Source: Cereibacter azotoformans
Lineage (GTDB): Bacteria; Pseudomonadota; Alphaproteobacteria; Rhodobacterales; Rhodobacteraceae
NCBI GenBank assembly: GCA_017599285.1
Contig: JAGFXX010000001.1
Location: forward strand, 2,632,501 to 2,696,500
Reading direction: 5' to 3'
Length of the DNA: 64,000 nucleotides
The translations under genes and the position numbers were made by a program. The notes under the pieces were generated by a model. That model had not been told where the DNA came from, searched no databases, and saw only the letters and a program-made list of their open reading frames with translations. Positions within the stretch are counted from its first letter, which is position 1; the number at the start of each line of letters is the position of its first letter. Shown here piece by piece: positions 1,673 to 14,199 of this stretch.

Positions 1673-1749
<77 letters not shown>

Positions 1750-1830: not shown

Positions 1831-2277
1831 CTAGCCGCCCGCAGGCACCGACTGCGGCGGGTCCAGCACCAGCCGGTGCCATGCCTCACGAAACTCGTCC
1901 CGGTCATATGCCCGCGGTTCAAGCCACCAGCGACCGCCATTCCGGTCCTGGGTCGCAAGGGCACGAACATCCTCGAGCCGCAGAACATAGCAGGCAGGGG
2001 TATCGCTGTTCGCATGAACGGTAATGATCCACCAATCAGACCGCAGACTGCGAAGGTCGGTGCCTAAGGGCACGGCGTGTCGCTTGCTCAGCGCCTTGGA
2101 CTGGACCCCGAAGAAATGCGTCTCGTCCGCATCGGTGACGATTAGATCGGACCCCCTCGCATTCCGTATCGTCGGCATGATGCGCCAGCCCCGGCGTGAG
2201 AGCTGCCACGCGGCATAGTTCAGCCCGGAATTGCCCGTCATCTGGTGCCGTATCGGCGGATCGTTCTGCTCAGACAT
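1831..2277 (-). CDS. Hypothetical protein, PD-(D/E)XK-nuclease-like fold
   Basis: 148 aa with no family I can name firmly. The central part reads GSDLIVTD, then a beta-strand pair ending FFGVQSKALSK, a layout like the D-(x)n-(E/Q)xK core of small PD-(D/E)XK nucleases, with Q-S-K in place of E-x-K. The N-terminus (LNYAAWQLSRRGW) resembles the helix that opens many such folds. It is transcribed toward the rRNA operon. The ATG sits only 4 bp from a 9-bp-stem hairpin (2281-2307), so translation may depend on that structure. A genuine short orphan gene is likely; nuclease activity is only a structural guess. Confidence 0.6.
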   Translation of the reverse strand: MSEQNDPPIRHQMTGNSGLNYAAWQLSRRGWRIMPTIRNARGSDLIVTDADETHFFGVQSKALSKRHAVPLGTDLRSLRSDWWIITVHANSDTPACYVLRLEDVRALATQDRNGGRWWLEPRAYDRDEFREAWHRLVLDPPQSVPAGG

Positions 2278-2280
2278 AGC

Positions 2281-2437
2281 GCAGCCTCTAACTCAGTGAG
2301 AGGCTGCCCGGATCAAAGCCGGGTGTTGGAATCCTCGTGCGTAGCCCGAGGCACCGCTGCCTTTAGCGAGTGCTTGGACATACGCAACGGTCACCCGGCC
2401 GAAAATTCGACCGAGCTACGCATCAAGGGGATTCCAC
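2281..2437. repeat. Nested inverted repeats in the leader of the 1831-2277 gene
   Basis: Several inverted repeats are packed into 157 bp. A perfect hairpin GCAGCCTCT/AGAGGCTGC spans 2281-2307. GCCGGGTG (2319-2326) pairs with CACCCGGC (2392-2399). A long-range pair joins TTGGAATCCTCGTGCGTAGC (2327-2346 region) with GCTACGCATCAAGGGGATTCC (2415-2436 region). A small AGGCA/TGCCT hairpin lies inside (about 2349-2361). The nesting suggests a folded leader RNA or DNA element rather than coding sequence, and I see no convincing gene between 2278 and 2515. Confidence 0.5.
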
Positions 2438-2515
2438 GCCCCACGGGCAGAATTGGCTGCGCCGCCCGCTATCTCTGCCATGTTAGGCGCATTCATTCAA
2501 CGAGATAGGGTAGGT

Positions 2516-2553
2516 GATAAAAGCGCCCCCGCACCGATTGGCGCGAGGGCGCT
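2516..2553 (-). terminator. Rho-independent terminator of the phage-like operon
   Basis: On the minus strand a 14-bp stem (2540-2553 with 2522-2535, two G-T pairs) closes a 4-nt loop and is followed by TTTTATC. It lies about 70 bp after the last gene of the leftward operon. This is one of the strongest intrinsic terminators in the window. Confidence 0.85.
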
Positions 2554-2622
2554 CCGTCACCAGCGTCATGGGCTCCGCTGGCGCCGTAACCCCGAGCCAC
2601 CCCTAGCCCGAGGAATCGTATA

Positions 2623-2874
2623 TCATGCGCGGTTCCATACTCCGTTGCCGACCGTGTGGCGCACGCCATAGTCTCCGTCGCGGTGCCACCGCCGGAGGCA
2701 TTCGATGACCACAGGCATGTCAACCGGACACAGCTTGCCCGCCTCAACCCCGGCCATGCACTCAGCCGCGAACGCATCAACCGACCCGTAGATGGCTTCG
2801 ATGGGCGATGGCTTCGAGGTGCGAGCAGCCTCCAGCTTAGCAACCCGCTGCAACATGCCGCGCACACCCGCCAT
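2623..2874 (-). CDS. Hypothetical phage-like protein (83 aa)
   Basis: Last gene of the leftward accessory operon. The ATG overlaps the stop of the upstream gene as TGATG (2876-2872), which fixes the start and suggests translational coupling. The N-terminal MLQRVAKLEAARTSKP is a probable short coiled coil. The middle (VDAFAAECMAGVEAG) and the C-terminal VVIECLRRWHRDGDYG are helical and charged. I do not recognise the family. Size, overlap and context resemble small accessory genes of phage morphogenesis modules. Confidence 0.65.
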   Translation of the reverse strand: MAGVRGMLQRVAKLEAARTSKPSPIEAIYGSVDAFAAECMAGVEAGKLCPVDMPVVIECLRRWHRDGDYGVRHTVGNGVWNRA

Positions 2875-3059
2875 CAGGCACGCCCCTCGCCCTTGAGCCA
2901 ACGGGGGCGCAGGGCCTTGATGGTGCGCTGCATCTGCACCAGAAGCCGCGCCTCTGCCTCGCGCTGCTCCTGTGCCGCGAACACGCGGTCCACGGCACGC
3001 GCCACCTGCTTGACGCTGGGCTGCGGCTTGCTGTGGTCACCCTTAGCCACGGCCTTCAC
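2874..3059 (-). CDS. Hypothetical phage-like protein (61 aa)
   Basis: Small basic, helical protein (VKQVARAVDRVFAAQEQREAEARLLVQ) with a GTG start at 3059 that overlaps the end of the upstream gene by 17 bp. The next gene starts at its stop (TGATG). The KR-rich C-terminus (RPRWLKGEG) suggests nucleic-acid or protein contact, but no family is recognised. Support comes mainly from the gapless operon arrangement. Confidence 0.55.
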   Translation of the reverse strand: MKAVAKGDHSKPQPSVKQVARAVDRVFAAQEQREAEARLLVQMQRTIKALRPRWLKGEGRA

Positions 3060-3255
3060 CTTTCAGCTTCTCGAACGCTGCCACCAGCGACGGGGCTGCA
3101 CCGAGGCACCGGGCAAACTCCATCTCGCCGCGCACCTCGGACACCAGCGCATCTTCCTCACGGCGCTTCTGGATGGCGTCCAGTGCGTCGCGTTGCGCTT
3201 CGTTCTCGCGGTTGCGCTTCGCTTGGCCGCGCAGATCGTCTTCATCAGCTTTCAT
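3043..3255 (-). CDS. Hypothetical phage-like protein (70 aa)
   Basis: Begins with ATG one base after the preceding stop (TGAC ATG), so it belongs to the same transcript. The sequence is very rich in charged residues (MKADEDDLRGQAKRNREN, then IQKRREEDAL) and is predicted to be helical. The C-terminal half ends LVAAFEKLKGEGRG. No known domain is visible. Lengths and close packing are typical of phage or satellite operons. Confidence 0.6.
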   Translation of the reverse strand: MKADEDDLRGQAKRNRENEAQRDALDAIQKRREEDALVSEVRGEMEFARCLGAAPSLVAAFEKLKGEGRG

Positions 3256-3256
3256 G

Positions 3257-3646
3257 TCAGATCACCTTCATTGTCTTGAGGACGTTCATTGCGTCGGCCC
3301 GCACCTCGGGGTCCGGGCAGTCGCGCATCACTTCCAGCATCGCGGCGACAGCTTCACGGCGCAGCCTGCCCCGTTGCTGGTCGTCCAGTTGCGCCAGCCA
3401 GCTTTCCATCCGCTCACTGTTCGCCGCAGCGTATTCGGCAAAGGTGATGGGCACGAGGACGAGGGGGTGCGCCATCTGGTCGGCAATCCCCACAGCCCAA
3501 TCCACCGCCGCCTGATAGGCGTCGATGCCCCGCGTGCTGAGCAGGTGCCGTTCGGTCGGGCCGCGCAGGTAGGTCAGCACAAAGCTGTCCTCGGGCAACG
3601 GCTCGTAGGCATAGACATGGTTCCGCTCGGTCTTGATGACTGACAT
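3257..3646 (-). CDS. Hypothetical phage-like protein (129 aa)
   Basis: The ATG at 3646 follows the upstream stop directly (TGA ATG), with a strong ribosome site GGAGGTG lying inside the upstream gene's end. The N-terminus looks like beta strands (HVYAYEPLPEDSFVLTYLRG); the rest is helical and ends DPEVRADAMNVLKTMKVI, HEAT-like in spacing. Family not recognised. It is the third gene of the leftward operon and sits right after the DUF5681-like gene. Confidence 0.7.
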   Translation of the reverse strand: MSVIKTERNHVYAYEPLPEDSFVLTYLRGPTERHLLSTRGIDAYQAAVDWAVGIADQMAHPLVLVPITFAEYAAANSERMESWLAQLDDQQRGRLRREAVAAMLEVMRDCPDPEVRADAMNVLKTMKVI

Positions 3647-4117
3647 TCAGTTCACCTCCTTCGCTTCAAGCTGGATGATGCGCTGTTCCAGTTCTTCGTT
3701 CTTGCGGACGTTGCTCAGCGTGCCGATCATTGCGATGATCTGCTGCCCCACATCGGGCGGCACCTCGCCAGCCGCTACCGCGCCAAGCACGGCCTCGATC
3801 TGCTTGCCGATAGGCAGTTCGGGGTCGAGGCTGAACTGGACGGGTTCGGACTGCGCCTTGACGGGCGGCATGAGGCGGGACAACACCAGCCCAGCGGCGG
3901 TCATGTCACCCTCAAGCGCCCTGTCGATGACCACACGCACCACGTCCGGGCCGTCATCGTTCAATGCCCGCGCGATGCGTTCACGCTTGCTGGCAGCGGC
4001 ACCCTTTGGCCTGCCCGCGGGGTTGCCGCTCACACCCTTCTTCCAGTTCGGGTTGCCGGGGTTCTTACCCGGCACGAACCCTTCCATCCAAGCAGGCTGC
4101 TGAACTACTTCATTCAT
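3647..4117 (-). CDS. DUF5681-type phage protein
   Basis: 156 aa from ATG 4117; a TTG seven codons upstream is a weaker start. The signature GNPNWKKGVSGNPAGRPKGA near residues 22-41 is the hallmark of the DUF5681 domain, a short basic segment usually encoded next to phage terminase genes. The following region is helical (RERIARALNDDGPDVVRVVIDRALEGD), and the C-terminus NEELEQRIIQLEAKEV is a probable coiled coil. This is the clearest link between the operon and phages. Exact function of the family is unknown; DNA or terminase contact is an inference. Confidence 0.8.
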   Translation of the reverse strand: MNEVVQQPAWMEGFVPGKNPGNPNWKKGVSGNPAGRPKGAAASKRERIARALNDDGPDVVRVVIDRALEGDMTAAGLVLSRLMPPVKAQSEPVQFSLDPELPIGKQIEAVLGAVAAGEVPPDVGQQIIAMIGTLSNVRKNEELEQRIIQLEAKEVN

Positions 4118-4148
4118 CCGAAGACCCTTGCTTATCAAATCCCGAGGT

Positions 4149-4901
4149 TCAGATGCCCCCGAGGGCCTTCTCAGCGGCGTTGTGCTTGTCGCGGAGCATC
4201 TTGGCGTAGGCGGGCGACTTGCCGACGACCCGCTCCATTTCCTTGTGGATCAGCGGCGCACGGTCTTGGATCAGGTCCATCGCGGCACGCATGGCCCGCA
4301 GACGCTTGCTGGCGGTGGGGTTGGCCTTCTCGTTCCACAGGCGGCGCAGCACGGCCTGCATTTCGTCGGTCAAGCCTGACAAATATGCCGGGGCTCCCAA
4401 AACGGCGGAAACTGTAAGCTCGTCACCCTTCTGGATGGCAGCTTGCACGAACCCAAGGGCGCTTTGGCCGGGGCGCTTGTCTGCCGTGCTGGTGCCCTGC
4501 CGCTCTGCCAGACCCTTCACATGGTCGCGGATCTGCGTGCTGATGGTGTGTGCGGCGCGCGCTTCCATTGGGGCGGAGAGCTGCTTTTCAATCAACTCAG
4601 CCCCGGCCCGCATGTTGTGGTAAACCTTGTCGAGCTGCGGCGCGAACTTGGCGAACGCACGATCCGCCATCTCCTGGACCTTGATCGTCCGCATGTCCTC
4701 GTTCCACGCGGTGTTGCCAGCAGCAACGTCGCGCACGTCCAGCACCTTGCCGATACCCTCATAGACCGAAGTGAACGCCTGCACGACCTGTTGCAGTTCA
4801 CCTTCCGTTTCGGAATCATATTCGTCCAGCGACGCAACGCTTTGCGGGTGGAGCGAAGCGGTGATCCGCGTGTCCACACCCATTCCAAGATCGACTGCCA
4901 T
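4149..4901 (-). CDS. Hypothetical helical phage-like protein (250 aa)
   Basis: First gene of the leftward accessory operon. The start ATG 4901 is preceded by AGGGTGGATCAGAGAAA. It has no signal peptide or membrane segment. The sequence is almost wholly helical with heptad-like stretches, and its C-terminus is strongly basic (NPTASKRLRAMRAAMDLIQD...KMLRDKHNAAEKALGG). The composition would suit a scaffolding or DNA-packaging accessory protein, but I recognise no family and do not assign one. An inverted repeat ACTGATC/GATCAGT lies 47-80 bp upstream. Confidence 0.7.
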   Translation of the reverse strand: MAVDLGMGVDTRITASLHPQSVASLDEYDSETEGELQQVVQAFTSVYEGIGKVLDVRDVAAGNTAWNEDMRTIKVQEMADRAFAKFAPQLDKVYHNMRAGAELIEKQLSAPMEARAAHTISTQIRDHVKGLAERQGTSTADKRPGQSALGFVQAAIQKGDELTVSAVLGAPAYLSGLTDEMQAVLRRLWNEKANPTASKRLRAMRAAMDLIQDRAPLIHKEMERVVGKSPAYAKMLRDKHNAAEKALGGI

Positions 4902-5156
4902 TTTCTCTGATCCACCCTGATAAGGCTTGCTATGTGCTGCAAGGGTAACTGATCCCTGCGAAAGTCCGCAATGCGATCAGTAACTTAGCTGCCGCGCGCC
5001 CCATATTCTGGGTCTGAAGGTCGGTCCCGAGCTGCGAGCCAACTCTCACAAACGCCTGCTCGCCCCATAGGGGGCAACCGCCCGCAGCGCTCGGCTAGAT
5101 CGGCATTGCGGCCGGGCGGGGTGTTACTCTGCCCCGCGTTCTGAGCGGAACCATGC
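4902..5156. other. Intergenic, left part of a divergent control region split by the IS
   Basis: No gene seen. It contains TAACTGATC (4946-4954) facing GATCAGTAA (4975-4983), a possible operator for the leftward operon. Before the IS21-family element inserted, this stretch was continuous with 7822-7907, giving one roughly 350-bp divergent promoter region between the leftward and rightward accessory operons. Confidence 0.5.
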
Positions 5157-5209
5157 GCGAGCTGATGAGCGACAACCAAGTTGGCCGAAACCGTCAGGCA
5201 AGTTGGCCG

Positions 5210-5259
5210 CTGGGTTCAGCCGGAGGACGGGCGTAGCCCGTCCCGGAGGCTGAACCCAG
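5210..5259. repeat. Long nested hairpin near the IS21 left end
   Basis: CTGGGTTCAGCC (5210-5221) pairs perfectly with GGCTGAACCCAG (5248-5259), and inside it GGACGGGC (5225-5232) pairs with GCCCGTCC (5236-5243). It lies upstream of istA, within the left end of the element. Such structures often shield transposase genes from outside transcription; that role is an inference here. Confidence 0.7.
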
Positions 5260-5350
5260 CGGCTGGCCCTCGTTTCGGGGGAGAAGGGTAGGTGCTGGCC
5301 GCTGCGGGCCGGTAGGGTCGAGGTCTCTGCTACCAAACGGAGATCCGACC

Positions 5351-6883
5351 GTGCCGGGCAAACCCGTCACCGACCAGCAAGTGAGAGTCTACATGACCGA
5401 CCGTCTCCAGCACAGCCAGCGTGTCGCCGCCGCCCGCGCCGGCTTCAGCGAACGCACCGCCCGCCGCATCGATGCCGATCCGCGCCTTCCATCGCAACGT
5501 CCGGCCCCCCGGGGCCGCACCGTGCCCGACCCGCTCGAGGCGGTGTGGGAACCGGTGCTGCTGCCGATCCTCGCGCGTGATCCAGCCGTTCAGGCCGTCA
5601 CCCTGTTGCGGCACCTTCAGACGAGCGATCCGGAGGCCTTCCCCGACGACCGCGTGCGCCGGACGCTCGAGCGGCGCGTCCGCGACTGGCGTGCCCTGAA
5701 CGGACCCGAGCGCGACGTGATCTTCCGCCAGACGCCGGAACCCGGCCGGATGGCGCTGTCGGACTTCACCGATGCGAACGAACTCTGCGTGACGATCACG
5801 GGGCAGCCGCTTGAGCAGCGCCTCTACCACTTCGTCCTGGCCTACAGCGGCTGGGAACATGCCGCCGTGGTGCTGGGCGGCGAGAGCTTCCCGGCGCTGG
5901 CCGAGAACCTCCAGAACGCGCTCTGGACCCTTGGCGGAGTGCCTGGCGAGCATCGCACCGACAGCCTGTCCGCAGCTTATCGGAACCTCGATGCCGAGGC
6001 CGCGGCGGACGTCACCAAGCGCTATGACGCCTTCTGCGCCCACTACGGCATGCTCGCCAGCCGCAACAATCCGGGCGAGGCGCACGAGAATGGATCTGTC
6101 GAGGCCCACAACAACCACCTGAAGGTCGCCCTTGATCAGGCCCTGATCCTGCGCGGCTCCCGCGACTTCGCCGATCTCGCCAGCTGGCGCCGCTTCGTCG
6201 ATGAACTGGTTGCTCGACGCAACCGCCGGCGCGAGTCCGCGGTGCGCATTGAGATGGCGGCGCTCAGGCCGCTGCCGGCCCGGCGCACCACCGACTTCAC
6301 CGAGGTGGTCGCGCGGGTCACGAAGACCGGGGGCTTCCTGGTCCACCAGGTCTTCTACTCGGCGCCCTCCCAACTGATCGGCAAGCGGTCGAACCGGAGG
6401 TTCGCCTCCGGCGAAACGGGTCCATGTCTACGACGACCGGATCGAGGCCTTTCTCGGAGCGACCCCTGTCGTCACGCACCCCGCCGTCGCGGCCGCGATG
6501 ACGGCACCCGCGTCCACTGCGTCAACTATCGCCATGTCATCCACGCCCTGCGCCGCAAGCCGCAGGCGCTGGCCGGTTCCGTTTACCGCGACGGCCTGTT
6601 CCCGCGATCGGAATACGCCGAGGCCTGGGTCGCGTTGTCCGCCGCCTTGCCGCGTCGCGACGCCTGCCGTCGCATGGTCGATCTGCTGTGGCTCGCCCAT
6701 GAGGAGGGCTGTGAGGCTGAACTGGCCGCGCTGATTGCCCAGACCCTCGGTCATGGCGAATTGCCCGAAGCCCATGCGCTAAGGAGTAAGCTGGAGCCGC
6801 GCCGGCGCGAGCTGCCCGACGACACGCCCGTCAACCTCACCGATCTCGCCCGCTTCGACGAACTGCTGGAGGCGCGCGCATGA
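5351..6883 (+). CDS. istA: IS21-family transposase IstA (with a locally frame-scrambled segment)
   Basis: 510 aa, GTG start after GGAG. The DDE integrase of the IS21 transposition complex, working with IstB. The N-terminal HTH (RVAAARAGFSERTARRI) and the core are seen: ALSDFTDANELC, then LYHFVLAYSGW, EHRTDSLSAAY and NPGEAHENGSVEAHNNHLK, giving the D-D-E set. Around residues 346-378 the frame is abnormal. A 31-bp palindromic segment (6389-6419) follows IGKR; the typical IstA sequence VHVYDDRIEAFLGATPVVTH is readable in another frame (6420-6479); the annotated frame resumes typical sequence at RRRGRDDGTRVHCVNYRHV. The two changes cancel, so the frame stays open. Activity may be impaired. Confidence 0.88.
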   Translation: MPGKPVTDQQVRVYMTDRLQHSQRVAAARAGFSERTARRIDADPRLPSQRPAPRGRTVPDPLEAVWEPVLLPILARDPAVQAVTLLRHLQTSDPEAFPDDRVRRTLERRVRDWRALNGPERDVIFRQTPEPGRMALSDFTDANELCVTITGQPLEQRLYHFVLAYSGWEHAAVVLGGESFPALAENLQNALWTLGGVPGEHRTDSLSAAYRNLDAEAAADVTKRYDAFCAHYGMLASRNNPGEAHENGSVEAHNNHLKVALDQALILRGSRDFADLASWRRFVDELVARRNRRRESAVRIEMAALRPLPARRTTDFTEVVARVTKTGGFLVHQVFYSAPSQLIGKRSNRRFASGETGPCLRRPDRGLSRSDPCRHAPRRRGRDDGTRVHCVNYRHVIHALRRKPQALAGSVYRDGLFPRSEYAEAWVALSAALPRRDACRRMVDLLWLAHEEGCEAELAALIAQTLGHGELPEAHALRSKLEPRRRELPDDTPVNLTDLARFDELLEARA

Positions 6884-7743
6884 CCGCCGCTGCCCCGCGC
6901 CCCGTCGATGTGCATGCGTTGCCCGCCATGCTCACGGCTCTCCGCCTGCCCAGCATCCAGCGCCACTGGACGATGCTCGCAGACCGCGCCGACGCCGAGG
7001 GCTGGCCCGCGTCGCGCTTCCTCGCAGCTTTGGCCGAGGTCGAGCTCGCCGATCGCGATGCCCGCCGCATCCAGCGCCATCTGCAGCAGTCCGAACTCCC
7101 CGGCGGCAAGACGCTGGCAACGCTCGACTTCAAGGCACTGCCCGGCGTGACCCGGGCCCGCATCGAGGCGCTGGCCGCCGGGGATTGGGTTGAGACCGGC
7201 GCCAATCTCATCGCCATCGGCAACTCGGGCGCCGGCAAGAGCCACGTTCTCTGTGCCATCGGCCATGCTCTCGTCGAGGCCGGCAAGCGCGTCCTCTACA
7301 CCCCCACCACCGACATCGTGCAGAGGCTGCAGGCCGCCCGCCGCGATCTGGTCCTCGAGGCCGCACTCGCGAAGCTCGACAAGTTCGACCTGATCATTCT
7401 CGACGACATCACCTACGCCCAGAAGGACCAGGCCGAGAGCTCGGTGCTCTTCGAGCTCATCGCCCGGCGCTACGAGACGCGAAGCCTCGCCATCGCCGCC
7501 AACCAGCCGTTCAGCGCCTGGAACCGCGTCTTCCCCGATCAGGCCATGACCGTCGCCGCCATCGACCGGCTGGTTCACCACGCCACCATCCTCGAGATGA
7601 ACGGCGAGAGCTTCCGCCGCCGCGCCGCCGCACGACGCCGATCCTCCGAGCCTGTCGCTGCGCCGACAGCCTCCAGCGACAACATCGGCGTCGAAGCCAC
7701 CGACAACATCAACGACAAGCTTAGGGAGATCAGCGCCGAGTAA
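6880..7743 (+). CDS. istB: IS21-family transposition helper ATPase IstB
   Basis: 287 aa AAA+ ATPase that selects targets and activates IstA. Its ATG overlaps the istA stop (ATGA at 6880-6883). Walker A is GNSGAGKS (residues 114-121), Walker B is LIILDD (171-176) and the sensor region is LAIAANQPFSAWN. The usual IstB proline in Walker A (GPSGxGK) is Asn here. The C-terminus carries a basic segment RRRAAARRRSS and an acidic tail. Length is slightly above the family norm of about 250 aa. It is intact and ends 72 bp before the right end of the element. Confidence 0.93.
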   Translation: MTAAAPRPVDVHALPAMLTALRLPSIQRHWTMLADRADAEGWPASRFLAALAEVELADRDARRIQRHLQQSELPGGKTLATLDFKALPGVTRARIEALAAGDWVETGANLIAIGNSGAGKSHVLCAIGHALVEAGKRVLYTPTTDIVQRLQAARRDLVLEAALAKLDKFDLIILDDITYAQKDQAESSVLFELIARRYETRSLAIAANQPFSAWNRVFPDQAMTVAAIDRLVHHATILEMNGESFRRRAAARRRSSEPVAAPTASSDNIGVEATDNINDKLREISAE

Positions 7744-7857
7744 CACCAACGACCGCAGCGGTCAAAACCGGCCATCCTGGTTGTCGGTCACGGCCAAGAA
7801 GGTTGACGCTCTACAGCGAGCGGTGTCGCGCATTTTTTAATATTTTCGCGCATAGTA

Positions 7858-7895
7858 TTGACATATCATGCGTGTGATCTATGTATGATGCGTGT
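7858..7895 (+). promoter_or_regulatory. Promoter with two direct repeats, rightward accessory operon
   Basis: A consensus -35 TTGACA (7858-7863) is followed after 16 bp by TATGTA (7880-7885). ATGCGTGT occurs twice, at 7868-7875 and 7888-7895, exactly 20 bp apart, on the same face of the helix and bracketing the -10. This looks like a repressor site. It also argues that the ATG at 7881, which falls in the -10, is not the start codon of the next gene. Confidence 0.6.
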
Positions 7896-7907
7896 CGGCG
7901 GAAAATC

Positions 7908-8594
7908 ATGGAGGGCGATGTGGCATTCAGGGCTGATGAGGCTGCGAATAACGGCTACGAGCGAGCTAGGAACTACCTGATCCCTAGAACATTCGATCCG
8001 GCGCATCGCCAGAAGGCGGAAGCTGCTCTCTTGGATATTGTTGACCAGTTGGGCCCAGTTGTTGAAGGGTATCCCACGTGGCACCCATTGGTTGCCAATC
8101 ACGATGGTCGCAATCCAGAAACGACGCCGAACACGCGAAGCGGATACGAGGGATTGGACCACACCGTCTATTTCGCGCACGGATTCATCACCTGCCCGTA
8201 TCAAGGCAGCGGCAAAGCAAGCAAGGTGATCGAGTCCGTTTCAAAGCTGCCGTATCATCACTGCGCCAGCATTACTGCCGAAGAGCTAGAGATCGAGTTC
8301 TACAATTCTGGAACTACTGCAACCCTTGTCAAATGTGAGTGGCACGACGGTCTGGACCTTGGGCATCTGATACCAAAGCGTCTGGCGGTTCCGCTGATGC
8401 TAGAGCAAGAGTTGCCATGCTGGCGCTGGTCGGAGCGGGCTGAGACTTGGGAGACTATGCGCCCCTATTTGCTGGGCGAACCGCATGGGGGCCGGTCGTC
8501 TTTGTTCGTCGGCCAAGAGACGGCTCTCGCGATGAAGCATGTGTATATGGCGATGGTTCAATCTGGGATGTTTGGTCCGCTCAAGATGGGTTGA
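7908..8594 (+). CDS. Hypothetical accessory protein (228 aa)
   Basis: The start at ATG 7908 is chosen because an upstream in-frame ATG (7881) lies in the promoter's -10. No signal peptide or membrane span. The sequence mixes aromatic and charged residues (GYPTWHPLVANHDGRNPE, then DHTVYFAHGFITCPYQG, VKCEWHDGLDLGHLIPKR), with a conserved-looking His/Cys set (H, C, H-H, C-x-W-H). I recognise no family. Codon use is less GC-biased than in the chromosomal genes nearby, which fits foreign origin. It is the first gene of a two-gene operon with the ParB-like gene. Confidence 0.7.
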   Translation: MEGDVAFRADEAANNGYERARNYLIPRTFDPAHRQKAEAALLDIVDQLGPVVEGYPTWHPLVANHDGRNPETTPNTRSGYEGLDHTVYFAHGFITCPYQGSGKASKVIESVSKLPYHHCASITAEELEIEFYNSGTTATLVKCEWHDGLDLGHLIPKRLAVPLMLEQELPCWRWSERAETWETMRPYLLGEPHGGRSSLFVGQETALAMKHVYMAMVQSGMFGPLKMG

Positions 8595-8603
8595 GGTGAG
8601 GCA

Positions 8604-9074
8604 ATGAACCGACAGGAGCGACGCAAGGCGAACAGGGGCAAGCCGAAGGTGCTGGCGACGATCCGCCGGGAGATTTTCACGACGACTAATCTGGGAGACA
8701 AAGAGGTCCACCTTGATGTTGGGCGAATGCGTGAATGGGCTGAGAAGCACATCGAGCCGCAGAAGATGCAGATTGTCGCTGAGCATGTGAAATGGCTGGT
8801 GGAGGGCGGCACGGTCACGCAAGACAGGGTGATGGGCTACACCATCAATCAAATCCCGAAGCCGATCCTTGTGTGCGAGCACCCCGAGGGGCTAGGCGAC
8901 GAGATCGTTGACGGGAACCATACCTATGTCGCCATGGCCCTTAGCTGGGCGCAGGCCGTTCAAGTAGGCTTGGCAGCACCATCGGACACCCCTTTCGTCG
9001 TAGGTTATGGCCTCACGCCTGAACAGTGGCGACCGTTCGTTGTGCCAGCCTCGCAATTGCGGAAGCGAGGCTAA
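8604..9074 (+). CDS. Hypothetical protein with ParB/Srx-like core
   Basis: 156 aa, starting 9 bp after the previous gene with GAGGTGAGGCA as ribosome site. The N-terminus MNRQERRKANRGKPK is very basic. The segment EIVDGNHTYVAMALSWAQA resembles the xVDGxHRxxAA motif of ParB/Srx-type domains, preceded by YTINQIPKPILVCEHPEG in the place of the usual beta strands. The match is partial: N-H-T replaces N/G-H-R. It may bind nucleotide or DNA, but this is a structural guess. It is co-transcribed with the 7908-8594 gene. Confidence 0.65.
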   Translation: MNRQERRKANRGKPKVLATIRREIFTTTNLGDKEVHLDVGRMREWAEKHIEPQKMQIVAEHVKWLVEGGTVTQDRVMGYTINQIPKPILVCEHPEGLGDEIVDGNHTYVAMALSWAQAVQVGLAAPSDTPFVVGYGLTPEQWRPFVVPASQLRKRG

Positions 9075-9488
9075 GGCTAGGACAGGGCTAGGCGCGGGGT
9101 ATGACCACACGGCAAATGCGATGCCATTCAAGGGCTTGCCCCTCGGTGGCTGGCATATGCACCCTTTGACGTTCGACCTTTTGGACCGAGAAAGGCACCC
9201 TGCGGTTGCCCTTTTCGGGGCTGGACAACCCCAAGCCGGGGAATCGTAGCAGATCGTAGCCGCGTTAACACAGCGATTTGCTACAATCGTAGCCGCGTTT
9301 TTTGCAGCAAAAACAGTGCGTTATGGGTGATCGTGGCAATCGTAGCCGTAGCAGCCGGGGTGCGCGCGGCTACCGTAGCAATCGTCGCGTAGCCCCATTA
9401 CGCAAGAGATTAGATATGTATGTATCTATCGACCTTTTGTCGCTACCCCGAAAACAGATGTTTACCGAGTTCAGCCTGAACAACGCGA
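9075..9488. other. Intergenic, no convincing gene
   Basis: 414 bp from the ParB-like gene to the IS5-type transposase. The first 165 bp show short open frames only. The second part contains the ATCGTAGC repeat cluster (separate entry) and an AT-richer stretch (9400-9470) that may be the old flank of the IS5-type insertion. Confidence 0.6.
9242..9393. repeat. ATCGTAGC repeat cluster (iteron-like)
   Basis: ATCGTAGC occurs exactly at 9243-9250, 9253-9260, 9286-9293 and 9339-9346. Near copies lie at 9330-9337 (ATCGTGGC), 9373-9379 and 9380-9393. A 14-mer ATCGTAGCCGCGTT is repeated at 9253-9266 and 9286-9299, 33 bp apart (three helical turns). GCTAC-AATC-GTAGC (9280-9293) is a small palindrome. 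The spacing is irregular, so it is not a CRISPR. It could be a replication or partition site, or an operator array for the ParB-like neighbour. Confidence 0.6.
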
Positions 9489-10858
9489 TCAGGCGGCCGC
9501 GTGACTGTAGCCGCGAGCGCGCTCCTGCCGGATCATCGCCAGAACGAGGGTAATGACGGCGGCAAGAAGCTTCCTCAGATGGGCGAGGATCTTGCGGATG
9601 TTGTGACCGCATCCGCAGAGGACGGCGAAGAGGGCGTCACCAATGACGCCTTTGAGGAAGCAGCGCGACAGCCTTCCGTCGGTCTTCATGTGGCCGATCT
9701 CGGGTTCGATGCTGCTGCGCCGACGCAGCGCCTTTGCCAGCGCCGGGGCCAGCCCGCGGCGGGTGCCGCTGATCAGCACCTGGGTGTGCTGGACGCCGTG
9801 GCCCTTGTATCCGCGGTCGACGACAGCGCGTTTGGCCGGGTGGCCGGTGAGGATCGCCACCTGCTCCAGCGCCTCGCCGAGAGTGTGGCCGTCGTAAGGA
9901 TTGCCCGGCAGCGAGCGCGCGCCCACCACGAAGCCGCCCTTCAGCGTGGTGGCGATGCTGACCTTGGTGCCGAACTCGTAGCGGACGCGGGCCTTGCCCT
10001 TCGAGATGCAGTCGACCTCGGGCTCATGGAGCGAATAGATCTTGCCCGGGTCCTTCGGCCGCTGGTGGAGCAGCCGCGAGACCAGCACGAGCTTGTCCAG
10101 AACCCGCTCGCGCAGCGGCCCCTCGGGGATCTCGTCGAGCTGCCGCCGGATGTCCCGCATCACGCGGCCGGTATAGCCCTTGAGCGTTCTCAATGCCTTG
10201 CGCATGCGCCGGAACTGCTTCGCATGAGCATAGCGGCCGACCTGCGCCGCCAGCCGCGGCGCCAGGCGCGCGTAGCTCTGGCGCAACTCGATGCCGGCCT
10301 CCTGCGCCAGATCCACCAGCTGTGCCCGCGCCCGGTCGTAGAGCCGGGAGTCGGTCGGGTGCGCGATGTTCTTTTCCATGACGGTGGTGTCGACGGCGAT
10401 CTCGTCGAGGCTCGTGTCATCGACGGCGCCGGACTTGCGACCAGCCTCGATGGTCTTTGTCAGCAGCCACTCCACGCCTTCCTCACCGATCCGCTTCCGC
10501 CACCGAATGAGCGAGGTCGGGTCGATCGGCGGGCGATGCTGAAAGAAGGTCTCGCCGGTGAAATGCTGAAAGTAGGGGTTCTCGACCCAGCGGGCGACCA
10601 CGGCTTCGTCCGAGAGCCGGAACGCGTGCTGCAGGTAGAGCAGCCCCGCGACCAGCCGCGGCGAGGTCGCCGGCCGTCCGGTCGTGGACGGGAAGAACCC
10701 GGCCCATTCGCGCTCGAAGAACTCCCAGTCGATCAGCCCCGCCAGCGTGACCAACTCGTGACGTATGTCGATCATGTCGACGAGGCGCGGCCGGAAGAGG
10801 TCGTTCTGCTCGGGAGGACGGGGACGATGCTTCATGCGACGGGCCAAAATTGCAGGGT
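9470..10858 (-). mobile_element. IS5-superfamily insertion sequence (ends approximate)
   Basis: Carries one transposase gene on the minus strand. The right end must lie between about 10847 and 10861, because the next transposase reading frame is already readable from about 10860. The left end is set near 9470 from a weak match between AGCCTGAACAA and the inward-read right end AACCCTGCAATTTT. I could not define terminal repeats or a target duplication with confidence. Confidence 0.65.
9489..10835 (-). CDS. IS5-superfamily DDE transposase
   Basis: 448 aa from ATG 10835; a TTG four codons upstream is the alternative. The N-terminal DUF772-like region (TTGRPATSPRLVAGLLYLQHAFRLSDE...ENPYFQHFTGE) is followed by the DDE core: D in AVDTTVMEKNIAHPTD, D in VVDRGYKG and E in SIEPEIGHMKTDGRL. 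These are the catalytic D, D and E of the DDE_Tnp_1 fold. Full length and no frame damage, so probably active. It inserted next to, or into, an older IS1634-like transposase whose 5' part is missing. Confidence 0.92.
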   Translation of the reverse strand: MKHRPRPPEQNDLFRPRLVDMIDIRHELVTLAGLIDWEFFEREWAGFFPSTTGRPATSPRLVAGLLYLQHAFRLSDEAVVARWVENPYFQHFTGETFFQHRPPIDPTSLIRWRKRIGEEGVEWLLTKTIEAGRKSGAVDDTSLDEIAVDTTVMEKNIAHPTDSRLYDRARAQLVDLAQEAGIELRQSYARLAPRLAAQVGRYAHAKQFRRMRKALRTLKGYTGRVMRDIRRQLDEIPEGPLRERVLDKLVLVSRLLHQRPKDPGKIYSLHEPEVDCISKGKARVRYEFGTKVSIATTLKGGFVVGARSLPGNPYDGHTLGEALEQVAILTGHPAKRAVVDRGYKGHGVQHTQVLISGTRRGLAPALAKALRRRSSIEPEIGHMKTDGRLSRCFLKGVIGDALFAVLCGCGHNIRKILAHLRKLLAAVITLVLAMIRQERARGYSHAAA

Positions 10859-10859
10859 T

Positions 10860-11705
10860 CCGCGCCGAATCCTATGAAATCCTGCAGGCCATGGCCACCA
10901 AAACCTCGGGTTTATCGCCTTGGATCCAGGCCGTCCCCGCCCGCCGCTACGGCGAGCTGGTCGAGACCTTCCGGGGCCTCGCGTTCGACGAGGCGGGCCT
11001 GGCCGAGGCCGGCTTCGCGGGCCACCGCCTGATCGTGGCGCACGATCCGCTGCGCGCGGCCGAGCAGCCGAGAAACGCCGCGCCCACATCGCCGAACTGG
11101 AGGTCATGGCCGAGCGCATGACTGGCAAGCGGGATGCGCAGGAGTTCGGACCGGACCGCGCAGCGGCGGATCCTCCAGTGGAGGATCCGGGGCCGGACGG
11201 GGCGACCGACCGAGGCCGCCGGGCCTCCGACCGCGGTGCCTGCAGCCGGTTCACCCGCGCGGTCGCCGAGGCCGAACTGACGCGCTTCCTCAAGGCCGAC
11301 TTCACCGCCGACCGCTTCAGCTGGTCGCTGGACGGGGCCGCCATTGCGGAAGCGGAACTCTTCGACGGCAAGCTCGCGCTGCTGACCAATGCGCTGGCCG
11401 ACATCGAGCGCGGCTTCCGGGTGCTGAAGTCCGATATCGAGATCGCCCCGGTCCACCACCGGCTGCCCGAGCGCATCCGCGCCCACGCGCTGATCTGCTT
11501 CCTGGCGCTCGTCCTCTACCGCGTCATGCGCATGCGGCTGAAGGCGAAGGGCCATGCGGCGAGCCCCCGCACCGCGCTCGATCTCCTCGCCCGCATCCAG
11601 AAGCACACCGCCCACGCCGGCAAGCGCAGCTTCCACGGCCTGAGCAAAACCACCCCGGAGCAACTCGACCTCTTTCACGCCCTGAGCCTGCCAAAACCGG
11701 CCTGA
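10860..11705 (+). pseudogene. IS1634-like transposase remnant, 5'-truncated and frameshifted
   Basis: Sequence typical of IS1634 transposases is readable but broken. The first part runs in one frame (LSPWIQAVPARRYGEL ... HRLIVAHDPLRAAEQ, to about 11070). A one-base loss near 11070 then moves it to a second frame (AEKRRAHIAELEVMAERM ... ADIERGFRVLKSDIEIAPVHHRLPERIRAHALICFLALVLYRVM) to the stop at 11705. The N-terminal half is absent; the frame begins at the edge of the IS5-type element. The element cannot move on its own. Confidence 0.8.
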
Positions 11706-12918: not shown

Positions 12919-14199
12919 ATGGGTAAGGCCGCCTTCCTGAGCCGCGCCGCAGGCCTCTTTGCCCAGGCGCGTCAGTCGCTGTGGTTCACGCCGGCCCTCT
13001 ATGCCATTGTCGCCGTCACGGTCCTGCTGCTGGCTCCGGTCATCGCGCCGTTCATTCCGCCCGAGCTTGTGGAGCTCATCGGCCTCGACGGGGTCTATGA
13101 TCTTCTCGACGCCCTGGCCAACACGCTTCTGGCGGTGGCGATCTTCTCGCTCGGGATCATGGCCTCGTCGATGCAGGCGGCCGCCGGCGCGGCCACGCCG
13201 CGGGCCCGGCCCCTGCTCATGAAGGACCGGACGGCGCAGAACGCGATCTCGACCTTCATCGGAGGCTTCATCTTTGCGATCGTGGGCCTCGTCGGCCTCT
13301 CGACCGAATATTACAACGACGCTTCGCGGGTGGTTCTGTTCCTCGCCTCCTGCGTCGTGATCCTGGCGGTCATCCTCGCCCTGATCCGCTGGATCGGCCG
13401 GCTGACCGGTCTCGGCGACGTCTCGGAGGTGACGGACCTGCTGGAAGAGACGGTGAAGGAGGCGCTGGCTGCGCATGCCCGCGATCCCTTCTTCGGCGGC
13501 GTTCGCAAGGACAGTGCGGATCGCGGCGGCTTCGACCTCTTCCCGCGCGGCTTTGGTCATGTGCAGGCCATCGATGGCGAACGGCTCGCAGCTCTCGTCG
13601 AGGACCGGCGCCTGTCCCTGCACCTTCTGGTGCGGCCGGGCGCCTATGTCGATCCGAAGCGGCCGGTGCTTCGCGCCGCCGAACCGTTCGACGAAGAGAC
13701 AGCCGACGCGCTTCTGGCTACCCTCACGATCGGCCCGGAGCGGAGGTTCGAGACCGATCCGCGCTACGGGCTGATCGCCCTGTCGGAGATCGCGTCTCGC
13801 GCGCTCTCGCCGGGGGTCAATGATCCGGGCACCGCGATCGGCGTCATCGGCACGGCCGTGCGCGTGCTGGCCTACTGGAGTGACAAATTGCAGGCAACTC
13901 CCGAGGTGCGTCACCCGCGTCTGCATGTCGTGCCGCTGGCGGCTGCGGATGTGATGGAGGACGCCTTCCGCTGGATCGCGCGCGACGGAGCCGGCCAGCT
14001 GGAGGTGCAGATCCGGCTGCAGAAAGCCCTGGCCACGCTGGCCGCGCACGATCCCCGCCTGTTTGGTGCCGCCGCCCGGCTTCTGTCGCGGGAATCGCTG
14101 GCTCGCGCGGCACAGGCGATGAAGATGCATCAGGACCTGGACCGGCTCAGGCTTGAGGTGGCCCAACTGGCTGCTCTCGGCGAGCACCCCGAGCGGTAG
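12919..14199 (+). CDS. DUF2254 family integral membrane protein
   Basis: 426 aa. The N-terminal half has four membrane segments: ALYAIVAVTVLLLAPVIAPF, LANTLLAVAIFSLGIMAS, ISTFIGGFIFAIVGLVGL and VVLFLASCVVILAVILALI. It begins with the QSLWFTPALYA motif seen in DUF2254 proteins. The soluble C-terminal half includes the family-like blocks DTDPRYGLIALSEIASRALSPGVNDPGTA and is cytoplasmic or periplasmic. Function unknown; members often sit among stress or envelope genes, as here between the LysM and DUF421 genes. Start taken at ATG 12919. Confidence 0.85.
   Translation: MGKAAFLSRAAGLFAQARQSLWFTPALYAIVAVTVLLLAPVIAPFIPPELVELIGLDGVYDLLDALANTLLAVAIFSLGIMASSMQAAAGAATPRARPLLMKDRTAQNAISTFIGGFIFAIVGLVGLSTEYYNDASRVVLFLASCVVILAVILALIRWIGRLTGLGDVSEVTDLLEETVKEALAAHARDPFFGGVRKDSADRGGFDLFPRGFGHVQAIDGERLAALVEDRRLSLHLLVRPGAYVDPKRPVLRAAEPFDEETADALLATLTIGPERRFETDPRYGLIALSEIASRALSPGVNDPGTAIGVIGTAVRVLAYWSDKLQATPEVRHPRLHVVPLAAADVMEDAFRWIARDGAGQLEVQIRLQKALATLAAHDPRLFGAAARLLSRESLARAAQAMKMHQDLDRLRLEVAQLAALGEHPER

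Follow-up and report, generated by a model that had tools for sequence, protein, structure and literature searches.

Among phage satellites, the P4-like ones are characterized by a P4-type alpha primase and by sid, psu and delta. Phage-inducible chromosomal islands (PICIs) carry an integrase, a regulator (alpA in Gram-negative bacteria), replication genes and, in some of them, the small terminase gene terS, according to the available part of PMC6092414, the main text of which does not contain the word Alphaproteobacteria. The phage-inducible chromosomal minimalist islands (PICMIs) of Vibrionaceae adjoin fis and are detected with a model that comprises an integrase, AlpA, a DUF3987 primase and Fis, and the available part of PMC10803314 reports that no packaging-redirection genes were found in them. 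Here we analyzed a cassette in a stretch of 64,000 nucleotides (nt) from Cereibacter azotoformans (Rhodobacteraceae; assembly GCA_017599285.1, contig JAGFXX010000001.1, positions 2,632,501 to 2,696,500 of the forward strand; hereafter, the window), for which the original prediction, made from the letters alone, had proposed either a prophage remnant or a satellite that relies on a helper. The cassette is probably what is left of a small element of the integrative kind that belongs to an undescribed family, most likely of PICI-type phage satellites. Among open-licence PubMed Central papers, we found no description of this family, which is characterized by a protein denoted P250 and a DUF5681 protein.

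The order of the conserved genes in the window, P250, DUF5681, P129 and P92 (from 4901 to 2623 on the minus strand), matches the order that defines the family. The first relative was a contig from a viral collection (L002), with a DUF5681 protein 68% identical to that of the window, and a genome search for P250 returned relatives at 32–35% identity. The four genes are found in the order of the window in L002 and in two further loci (L023 and L024), and the module is adjoined by integrase and replication genes in L002 and L023. In a profile scan of the named genome collection, we identified 40 loci with P250 relatives, the hosts being Rhodobacterales, Sphingomonadales, Rhizobium, Magnetospirillum, several beta- and gammaproteobacteria, and metagenome bins (one labelled Acidobacteria). 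The closest relative is L031, a Rhodobacterales bin (87% identity in P250), and the other 36 aligned P250 sequences are 28–46% identical to that of the window. The order of genes in the family is integrase, AlpA, replication gene, P250, DUF5681, P129, P97, P92 and a zinc-finger-like protein. Cargo of various kinds is interspersed, and the order of the called families is kept in 42 of 43 entries (the window, L023, L031–L070 and L071). The co-occurrence of the cassette's genes in other genomes, which the original prediction had named as a check, is thus found for the late module. The exception is L051, where an extra pair of P92 and zinc-protein genes (L051:3345–4025) precedes the integrase and perhaps belongs to a neighbouring second element. 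The clusters comprised 41 loci for P250, 36 for DUF5681, 28 for P129, 27 for the integrase, 24 for AlpA and 20 for P92; many of the loci are cut by contig ends, and the simple gene-calling script overlooked P250 in two of them (L048 and L066) as well as some genuine open reading frames (ORFs), such as the DUF5681 gene of L031. L071, L002 and L055, which agree in gene set and gene lengths, look like one element, and L057 and L064 are the counterparts of L024 and L025.

In 36 of the 42 loci scanned, the module is followed by a tRNA gene that is encoded on the other strand, so that its 3′ end faces the element; the types are Ser, Asn, Pro, Arg, Lys, Thr, Ala and Met, and the six loci that lack a tRNA (L002, L038, L043, L050, L062 and L063) end close by. 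A partial repeat of the same tRNA (its 3′ part) is present at the far end in 23 of the 36 loci, exact over 37–53 bp in 15 and 14–27 bp long in 8. This repeat precedes the called integrase by 170–460 nt in 21 of the 23 loci, and no integrase was called in the remaining two (L052 and L066). Bounded by these repeats, which we take as attachment (att) sites, 22 of the 23 elements measure 7.8–10.9 kb, and the other one (L049) measures 16.4 kb; if the satellite reading below is right, the 22 elements of 7.8–10.9 kb, 20 of them with a called integrase, would lend themselves to induction and sequencing.

We searched Pfam with 144 proteins of 15 of these elements, chosen from 183 called ORFs of at least 60 amino acids (aa) after 39 overlapping or doubtful ones had been dropped by eye; six other att-bounded elements were left out of this set. 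The 17 families identified include integrase (15 proteins), HTH_17 (14), DUF5681 (13), DUF3987 (7), AAA_25 (7) and PriCT_2 (3), as well as single restriction-modification, HEPN and RES proteins. No capsid, portal, large terminase, tail or relaxase family and no Fis-type family was found among the 144 proteins, and there was no structural family among the best 25 of the 61 PHROG families. The PADLOC matches (best 25 of 87 families) include PD-T7-4 (2 members) and type II restriction-modification proteins. The elements share with Gram-negative PICIs, as described in the available part of PMC6092414, a terminal integrase, an alpA regulator, replication genes with an origin (a candidate one here), independence from virion genes of their own and phage-resistance and other cargo; terS is present in some PICIs, and the DUF5681 gene would be its putative counterpart. 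The succession of integrase, alpA-type regulator and replication module is seen in the relatives that keep that end and not in the window copy. They differ from PICIs in the P250-P129-P92 late module, which has no named counterpart in that part of the source, and in the type of their TerS candidate, DUF5681. With PICMIs, as far as the available part of PMC10803314 describes them, the family has in common the very small size, integrase, AlpA and DUF3987-type primase, whereas it is located at tRNA genes rather than at fis, carries a terS candidate and yielded no Fis-type family among the 144 proteins, Fis being required by the PICMI detection model.

The family is rare. Counting the window's own genome in both cases, P250 was found in 5 of 147 relatives and in 4 of 385 genomes of the class; the matches in G021, G237 and G384 are weak and partial, and nothing rests on them. 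There was no P250 match in 50,697 phage records (at E = 0.01) or 72,556 plasmid records (at E = 0.001), and scans of viral contigs for close relatives of P250 and of p156, an ORF at the right end of the cassette, yielded none that was confirmed.

The window copy (Table 1) keeps the tRNA-Met end, the late module, cargo (nuc148, p237 and p156) and candidate origin repeats, so the element extends beyond the originally proposed limits of 2516–9074, from tRNA-Met to the repeats. The tRNA-Met at its left edge belongs to the rRNA operon, beside which the cassette had correctly been placed. The six gapless leftward genes are indeed there (gaps or overlaps of at most 10 nt as called), and the expectation that most of the genes have no recognizable family was borne out, the DUF5681 protein being the only one of the cassette above the Pfam cut-off (PF18932, E = 7.4 × 10−12). 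The integrase, AlpA, the replication gene and the far att site are missing from the cassette, and insertion sequence (IS) elements are found there instead. That the cassette is cut by IS elements and has no integrase of its own agrees with the original description: an IS21 element splits it, two transposase-like ORFs flank it on the right after the repeats, and the absence of the integrase is best read as a loss of that half of the element. Judging by alignment with relatives, translation of DUF5681 likely begins 21 nt into the listed ORF, at an ATG, and that of P92 27 nt into its ORF.

Table 1. Coordinates of the features of the element and its surroundings in the 64,000-nt window
Feature	Position	Strand	Remarks
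tRNA-Met, intact	1673..1749	+	ARAGORN and Rfam; 3′ end points at the element; presumed attachment-site tRNA
nuc148	1831..2277	−	Cargo gene, judged nuclease-like by eye; other members of the family have homologues
Structured RNA	2312..2462	−	Candidate 5′ leader of nuc148, 35 nt ahead of the start codon
G+C-rich hairpin	~2522..2553	−	Possible terminator of the leftward operon; by eye
P92	2623..2901	−	Final gene of the conserved module; homologues 36–51% identical at the same place
P61, small ORF	2874..3059	−	75% identical and collinear in L031
P70, small ORF	3043..3255	−	76% identical and collinear in L031
P129	3257..3646	−	Conserved module gene; cluster spans 28 loci among 43 entries
DUF5681 protein	3647..4138	−	PF18932; proposed small terminase (TerS)
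P250	4149..4901	−	All-helical signature protein of the family
IS21 element	~5161..7815	+	istA 5351–6883, istB 6880–7743; sits inside the cassette
p237	7881..8594	+	Cargo gene; homologue in L068
p156	8604..9074	+	Weakly ParB-like partner ORF; membership in the element by position only
Repeat cluster, direct and inverted (ATCGTAGC and variants)	9239..9399	+	Candidate replication origin (iterons)
Transposase-like ORF	9489..10847	−	At the truncated end of the element; named by eye from the translation
Second transposase-like ORF	10920..11705	+	Named by eye from the translation

By analogy, the att core of the window copy is expected at about 1703–1749. In the same-genus genome G002, 47–53 bp pieces of the 3′ half of tRNA-Met occur in five extra copies, so that tRNA-Met is probably an att site in use. 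These copies lie on contigs C14, C28 and C59. One contig holds three of the five, which points to elements arrayed in tandem at tRNA-Met. A comparison with the empty site was attempted in the same-genus genome G003, in which about 338 kb separate the gene of the right flank (12919–14199 in the window) from the closest 5S-tRNA match of that contig, and because of this distance the empty site could not be demonstrated. The lost half was also sought elsewhere in the assembly and was not recovered. The assembly contains three other tyrosine integrases, 24–36% identical to the satellites' own and of a different type (two are at most 28% identical over more than 290 aa, and the third scores only E = 7 × 10−7), and the 3′ end of tRNA-Met is present in a single copy at up to 2 mismatches in 22 nt; AlpA and the replication protein are absent from the window, and no dedicated search for them was made in the rest of the assembly.

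The repeats at 9239–9399 score 26, compared to a maximum of 15 in 200 shuffles. We compared the position of repeats and replication gene in 20 att-bounded elements. In 9 of them, no more than 400 nt separate the densest repeat window from the 3′ end of the gene, where random anchors would give 1.8, and in 17 this 3′ end falls in the top 5.1% of repeat windows (4.0 expected); a first run with a rough background had given 18 of 20. L066 was dropped from this test, and the end of the replication gene was set by hand in L032, L044 and L048. Given this position of the repeats in the relatives, the repeats of the window are probably a replication origin, and the break of the window copy probably lies just ahead of the replication gene.

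The DUF5681-type gene noted in the original prediction matches, in addition to PF18932, PHROG 9747 (E = 2.8 × 10−13), a family without an assigned function. From the best 40 of 295 matches in phages, we hand-picked records for a reading of gene neighbourhoods, and in 7 of the 7 that name a terminase (STGO-35-1, Vibrio 1.091.O, Aeromonas pIS4-A, seszw, IME207, Vibrio 1.276.O and 1.061.O), the large terminase follows the DUF5681 relative directly or after a single ORF. No terminase is named in the stretch examined of Streptomyces SF3, nor in MT836812, and the record of STP9 is without annotation. The alignment profiles of the satellite and phage proteins match with a probability of 99.1 (E = 1.2 × 10−18, 115 columns), and the available part of PMC8954984 reports a DUF5681 protein in the structural proteome of phage STGO-35-1. 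On the gene position in phages, the profile match and this proteome, our best guess is that the DUF5681 protein is a small terminase. Its likeness to the phage family in the TerS position (Salmonella STGO-35-1, Vibrio 1.091.O, Aeromonas pIS4-A and others), the genes of which stand before the large terminase, consists in the 115 profile columns; the satellite versions differ from those of phages by an additional N-terminal motif of the GNPaGRPkG type in the alignments and by the lack of a large terminase in the elements scanned.

The assignment of the family to phage satellites draws on family membership, gene order, the att repeats of the relatives and the absence of virion families among the proteins scanned, all of which come from sequence, and the following scheme adds AlpA control, use of the origin, TerS function, packaging by a helper and a role for P250. 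In members that have all modules, a tyrosine integrase would place the element in a tRNA gene, at the 3′ end. Its activation would probably fall to an AlpA-like protein, and the replication protein would copy it, starting from the 3′-terminal repeats of the replication gene. The genes from P250 through DUF5681 and P129 to P92 would act late, as an operon: the DUF5681 protein, as a small terminase, may steer the large terminase of the helper onto satellite DNA, and P250 with its neighbours may interfere with or reshape helper assembly, the varied cargo being placed between the modules. Lacking the integrase, AlpA, the replication gene and the far att site, the window copy should not excise by itself.

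Several observations weigh against this assignment. Helper dependence is inferred here from sequence, and the only viral contig with a P250 relative is itself a tRNA-integrated element. P250, P129 and P92 have no known relatives in family searches. The AlphaFold modelling envisaged in the original prediction gave a confident, all-helical AlphaFold2 model of P250 (pLDDT 90.4, pTM 0.81) and, for DUF5681, a low-confidence N-terminus followed by four helices, but the P250 model had no Foldseek match at E < 0.001 in PDB or BFVD, and the DUF5681 model had none in PDB at the same threshold. Two of the phage relatives of DUF5681, scanned singly, fall short of PF18932. There is no repeat peak at the replication gene in L061 and L067, and the window shows no far end of the element, in an assembly that is 83.7% complete. 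P250, P129 and P92 match no family of assigned function and that of DUF5681 is a predicted one, and the family might consist of elements that move by conjugation in trans, or by the integrase alone, with no part for DUF5681 and P250 in packaging, and p237 homologues do occur on plasmids typed as conjugative (see below). We nevertheless consider this unlikely, given that no relaxase family was found among the 144 proteins, that relatives of DUF5681 adjoin the large terminase in phages and that one is among the structural proteins listed in the available part of PMC8954984 for STGO-35-1, and that the order of integrase, AlpA, replication gene and late module and the size of 8–11 kb are satellite-like.

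The remnant of an ordinary prophage, from which IS elements deleted the structural genes, is the less favoured of the two origins in the original prediction and, in our estimate, a very improbable one, because the att-bounded relatives are mostly elements of 8–11 kb rather than prophages. The phage-type genes, the IS elements and the lack of an integrase in the window would all suit such a remnant, but 22 of the 23 relatives bounded by tRNA repeats fall in the narrow size range given above, P250 has no match among the phage records, and the prophage gene set (capsid, portal, terminase and tail) was not found among the window proteins and those of the 15 relatives. We further compared the window genes with those of L031, using ratios of nonsynonymous to synonymous substitutions (dN/dS). 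All six late ORFs are open, and the ratios of 0.18 for p250, 0.20 for p70 and 0.26 for p92, together with the loss of integrase, AlpA and the replication gene, could be expected if the host had kept the late module as a domesticated anti-phage locus after its mobility genes disappeared. However, these values measure selection between two elements and not selection after the truncation of the window copy, the ratios for DUF5681 (0.43), p129 (0.64) and p61 (0.66) are not low, and the 99.9% identity of the IS21 copies suggests recent IS activity, so that domestication appears quite improbable, although less so than the prophage remnant. A PICI-type satellite relying on a helper fits best, as the same genes in the same order make up compact tRNA-integrated elements. 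If this is correct, the family adds satellites to groups in which we found none described, and a small-terminase role of DUF5681 could be put to the test both in phages and in satellites.

A separate lead is the structured RNA ahead of nuc148. The RNA (2312–2462) has 90.5% nucleotide identity over 137 nt with L035 (Sphingomonas colocasiae) and 77% over 209 nt with L041 (Magnetospirillum aberrantis), and it is located upstream of a nuc148 homologue in both loci, with an intervening 70-aa ORF in L035. Compared to shuffled sequences, the fold has a z-score of −3.7 on the nuc148 strand and −4.8 on the other strand. For covariation, we used 16 of 26 matches (the best scoring except L137, L141 and L143): 97.1% of the cells are paired, 16 of the 28 pairs show changes on both sides, and the covariation score is 0.545, compared to 0.261 in shuffled and at most 0.152 in slid versions. 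All five covariation measures beat 500 of 500 shuffles and every slid version, the latter comparison favouring the structure because it was derived from the same alignment. A first model of the RNA matched 16 of 385 genomes of the class, and a second one matched 43 of 398 at the level of the phylum, where several genomes hold two or three copies; both tallies include the window's own genome, and the samples overlap in part (e.g., G392). No Rfam 15 family reached the gathering threshold in the window and 38 loci with relatives. The possibility that the weaker matches are chance palindromes was considered; shared unpaired motifs, covariation and the second genome sample speak against it.

We then examined the position of the RNA relative to genes in 42 loci (L132–L173, the window included). 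A called same-strand ORF starts between −40 and +80 nt from the RNA 3′ end in 24 loci. In 8 others, the called start of a same-strand ORF lies within or ahead of the RNA and the ORF continues past it, and ten have neither; the mirror-image control at the 5′ side gave 3 and 2 loci, respectively, and counting by hand in 34 of these loci had earlier given 21, 6 and 3. This clustering of ORF starts at the 3′ side makes it likely that the RNA is a cis-acting leader, riboswitch-like in form and a candidate new cis-regulatory class. Among the window and the 42 element loci, the RNA is present in only 3 of 43 sources (the nuc148 loci L042, L059 and L068 lack it), so it is cargo and not part of the core of the family. 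Covarying, common to phage-like and other genes and often located shortly before a start codon, it invites a search for a ligand or partner. On balance, we lean, with some reserve, towards the combined picture of a satellite family that spans alpha-, beta- and gammaproteobacteria, marked by an all-helical protein not described before and by a DUF5681-type small terminase of its own, and of a new and widespread class of riboswitch-like, cis-regulatory RNA, with the nuc148 leader as a member, that is shared by mobile elements and host genes. In G098 and G232, four copies of the RNA (L133, L134, L148 and L152) precede one small protein family of approximately 100 aa. Approximately 1.2 kb from another copy, there is a type II hammerhead ribozyme (L172:2894–2958, minus strand; 66.4 bits, gathering threshold 37).

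The nuclease-like orphan of the original prediction is present as nuc148, for which no Pfam or NCBIfam family was found; its nuclease-like character was judged by eye, and homologues were identified in L035, L041, L042, L059 and L068. The strong terminator proposed next to it corresponds to a G+C-rich hairpin that is absent from the output of the terminator scan; by eye, its loop exceeds the limit of the scan and a short T run follows it, and there is a sub-threshold partial alignment to RF01670 (E = 0.21). The proposed divergent operon of two genes exists as p237 and p156, but the ParB label comes only from PHROG 723 at E = 0.056. In L068, a p237 homologue lies between the replication gene and P250 and adjoins a nuc148 homologue, and p237 occurs in 3 other genomes among the 295 searched in the family. 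Of 72,556 plasmid records, 197 carry a p237 homologue; 158 of the 197 are typed as conjugative, and the homologues are hypothetical or unannotated in the best 15 of the 197 matches; p237 is thus cargo common to plasmids and satellites. A p156 paralogue, 41% identical, is located elsewhere in the same genome, near phage-like genes (L126; G000:C1:1586993–1587430), and there was no p156 match in the remaining 294 of the 295 genomes searched.

The identity of the IS21 element is given by IstB, which matches the curated NCBIfam IS21 helper ATPase, and its boundaries were taken from a second genomic copy, 99.9% identical, at approximately 1.979–1.981 Mb of G000:C1. The same genome contains a prophage-like region (L131, G000:C1:1952000–1969000, and L118) with a large terminase, a small terminase of another type, HNH, capsid and portal-like ORFs identified by eye. 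Next to this region, which is a possible helper, come an integrase and then the second copy of IS21.

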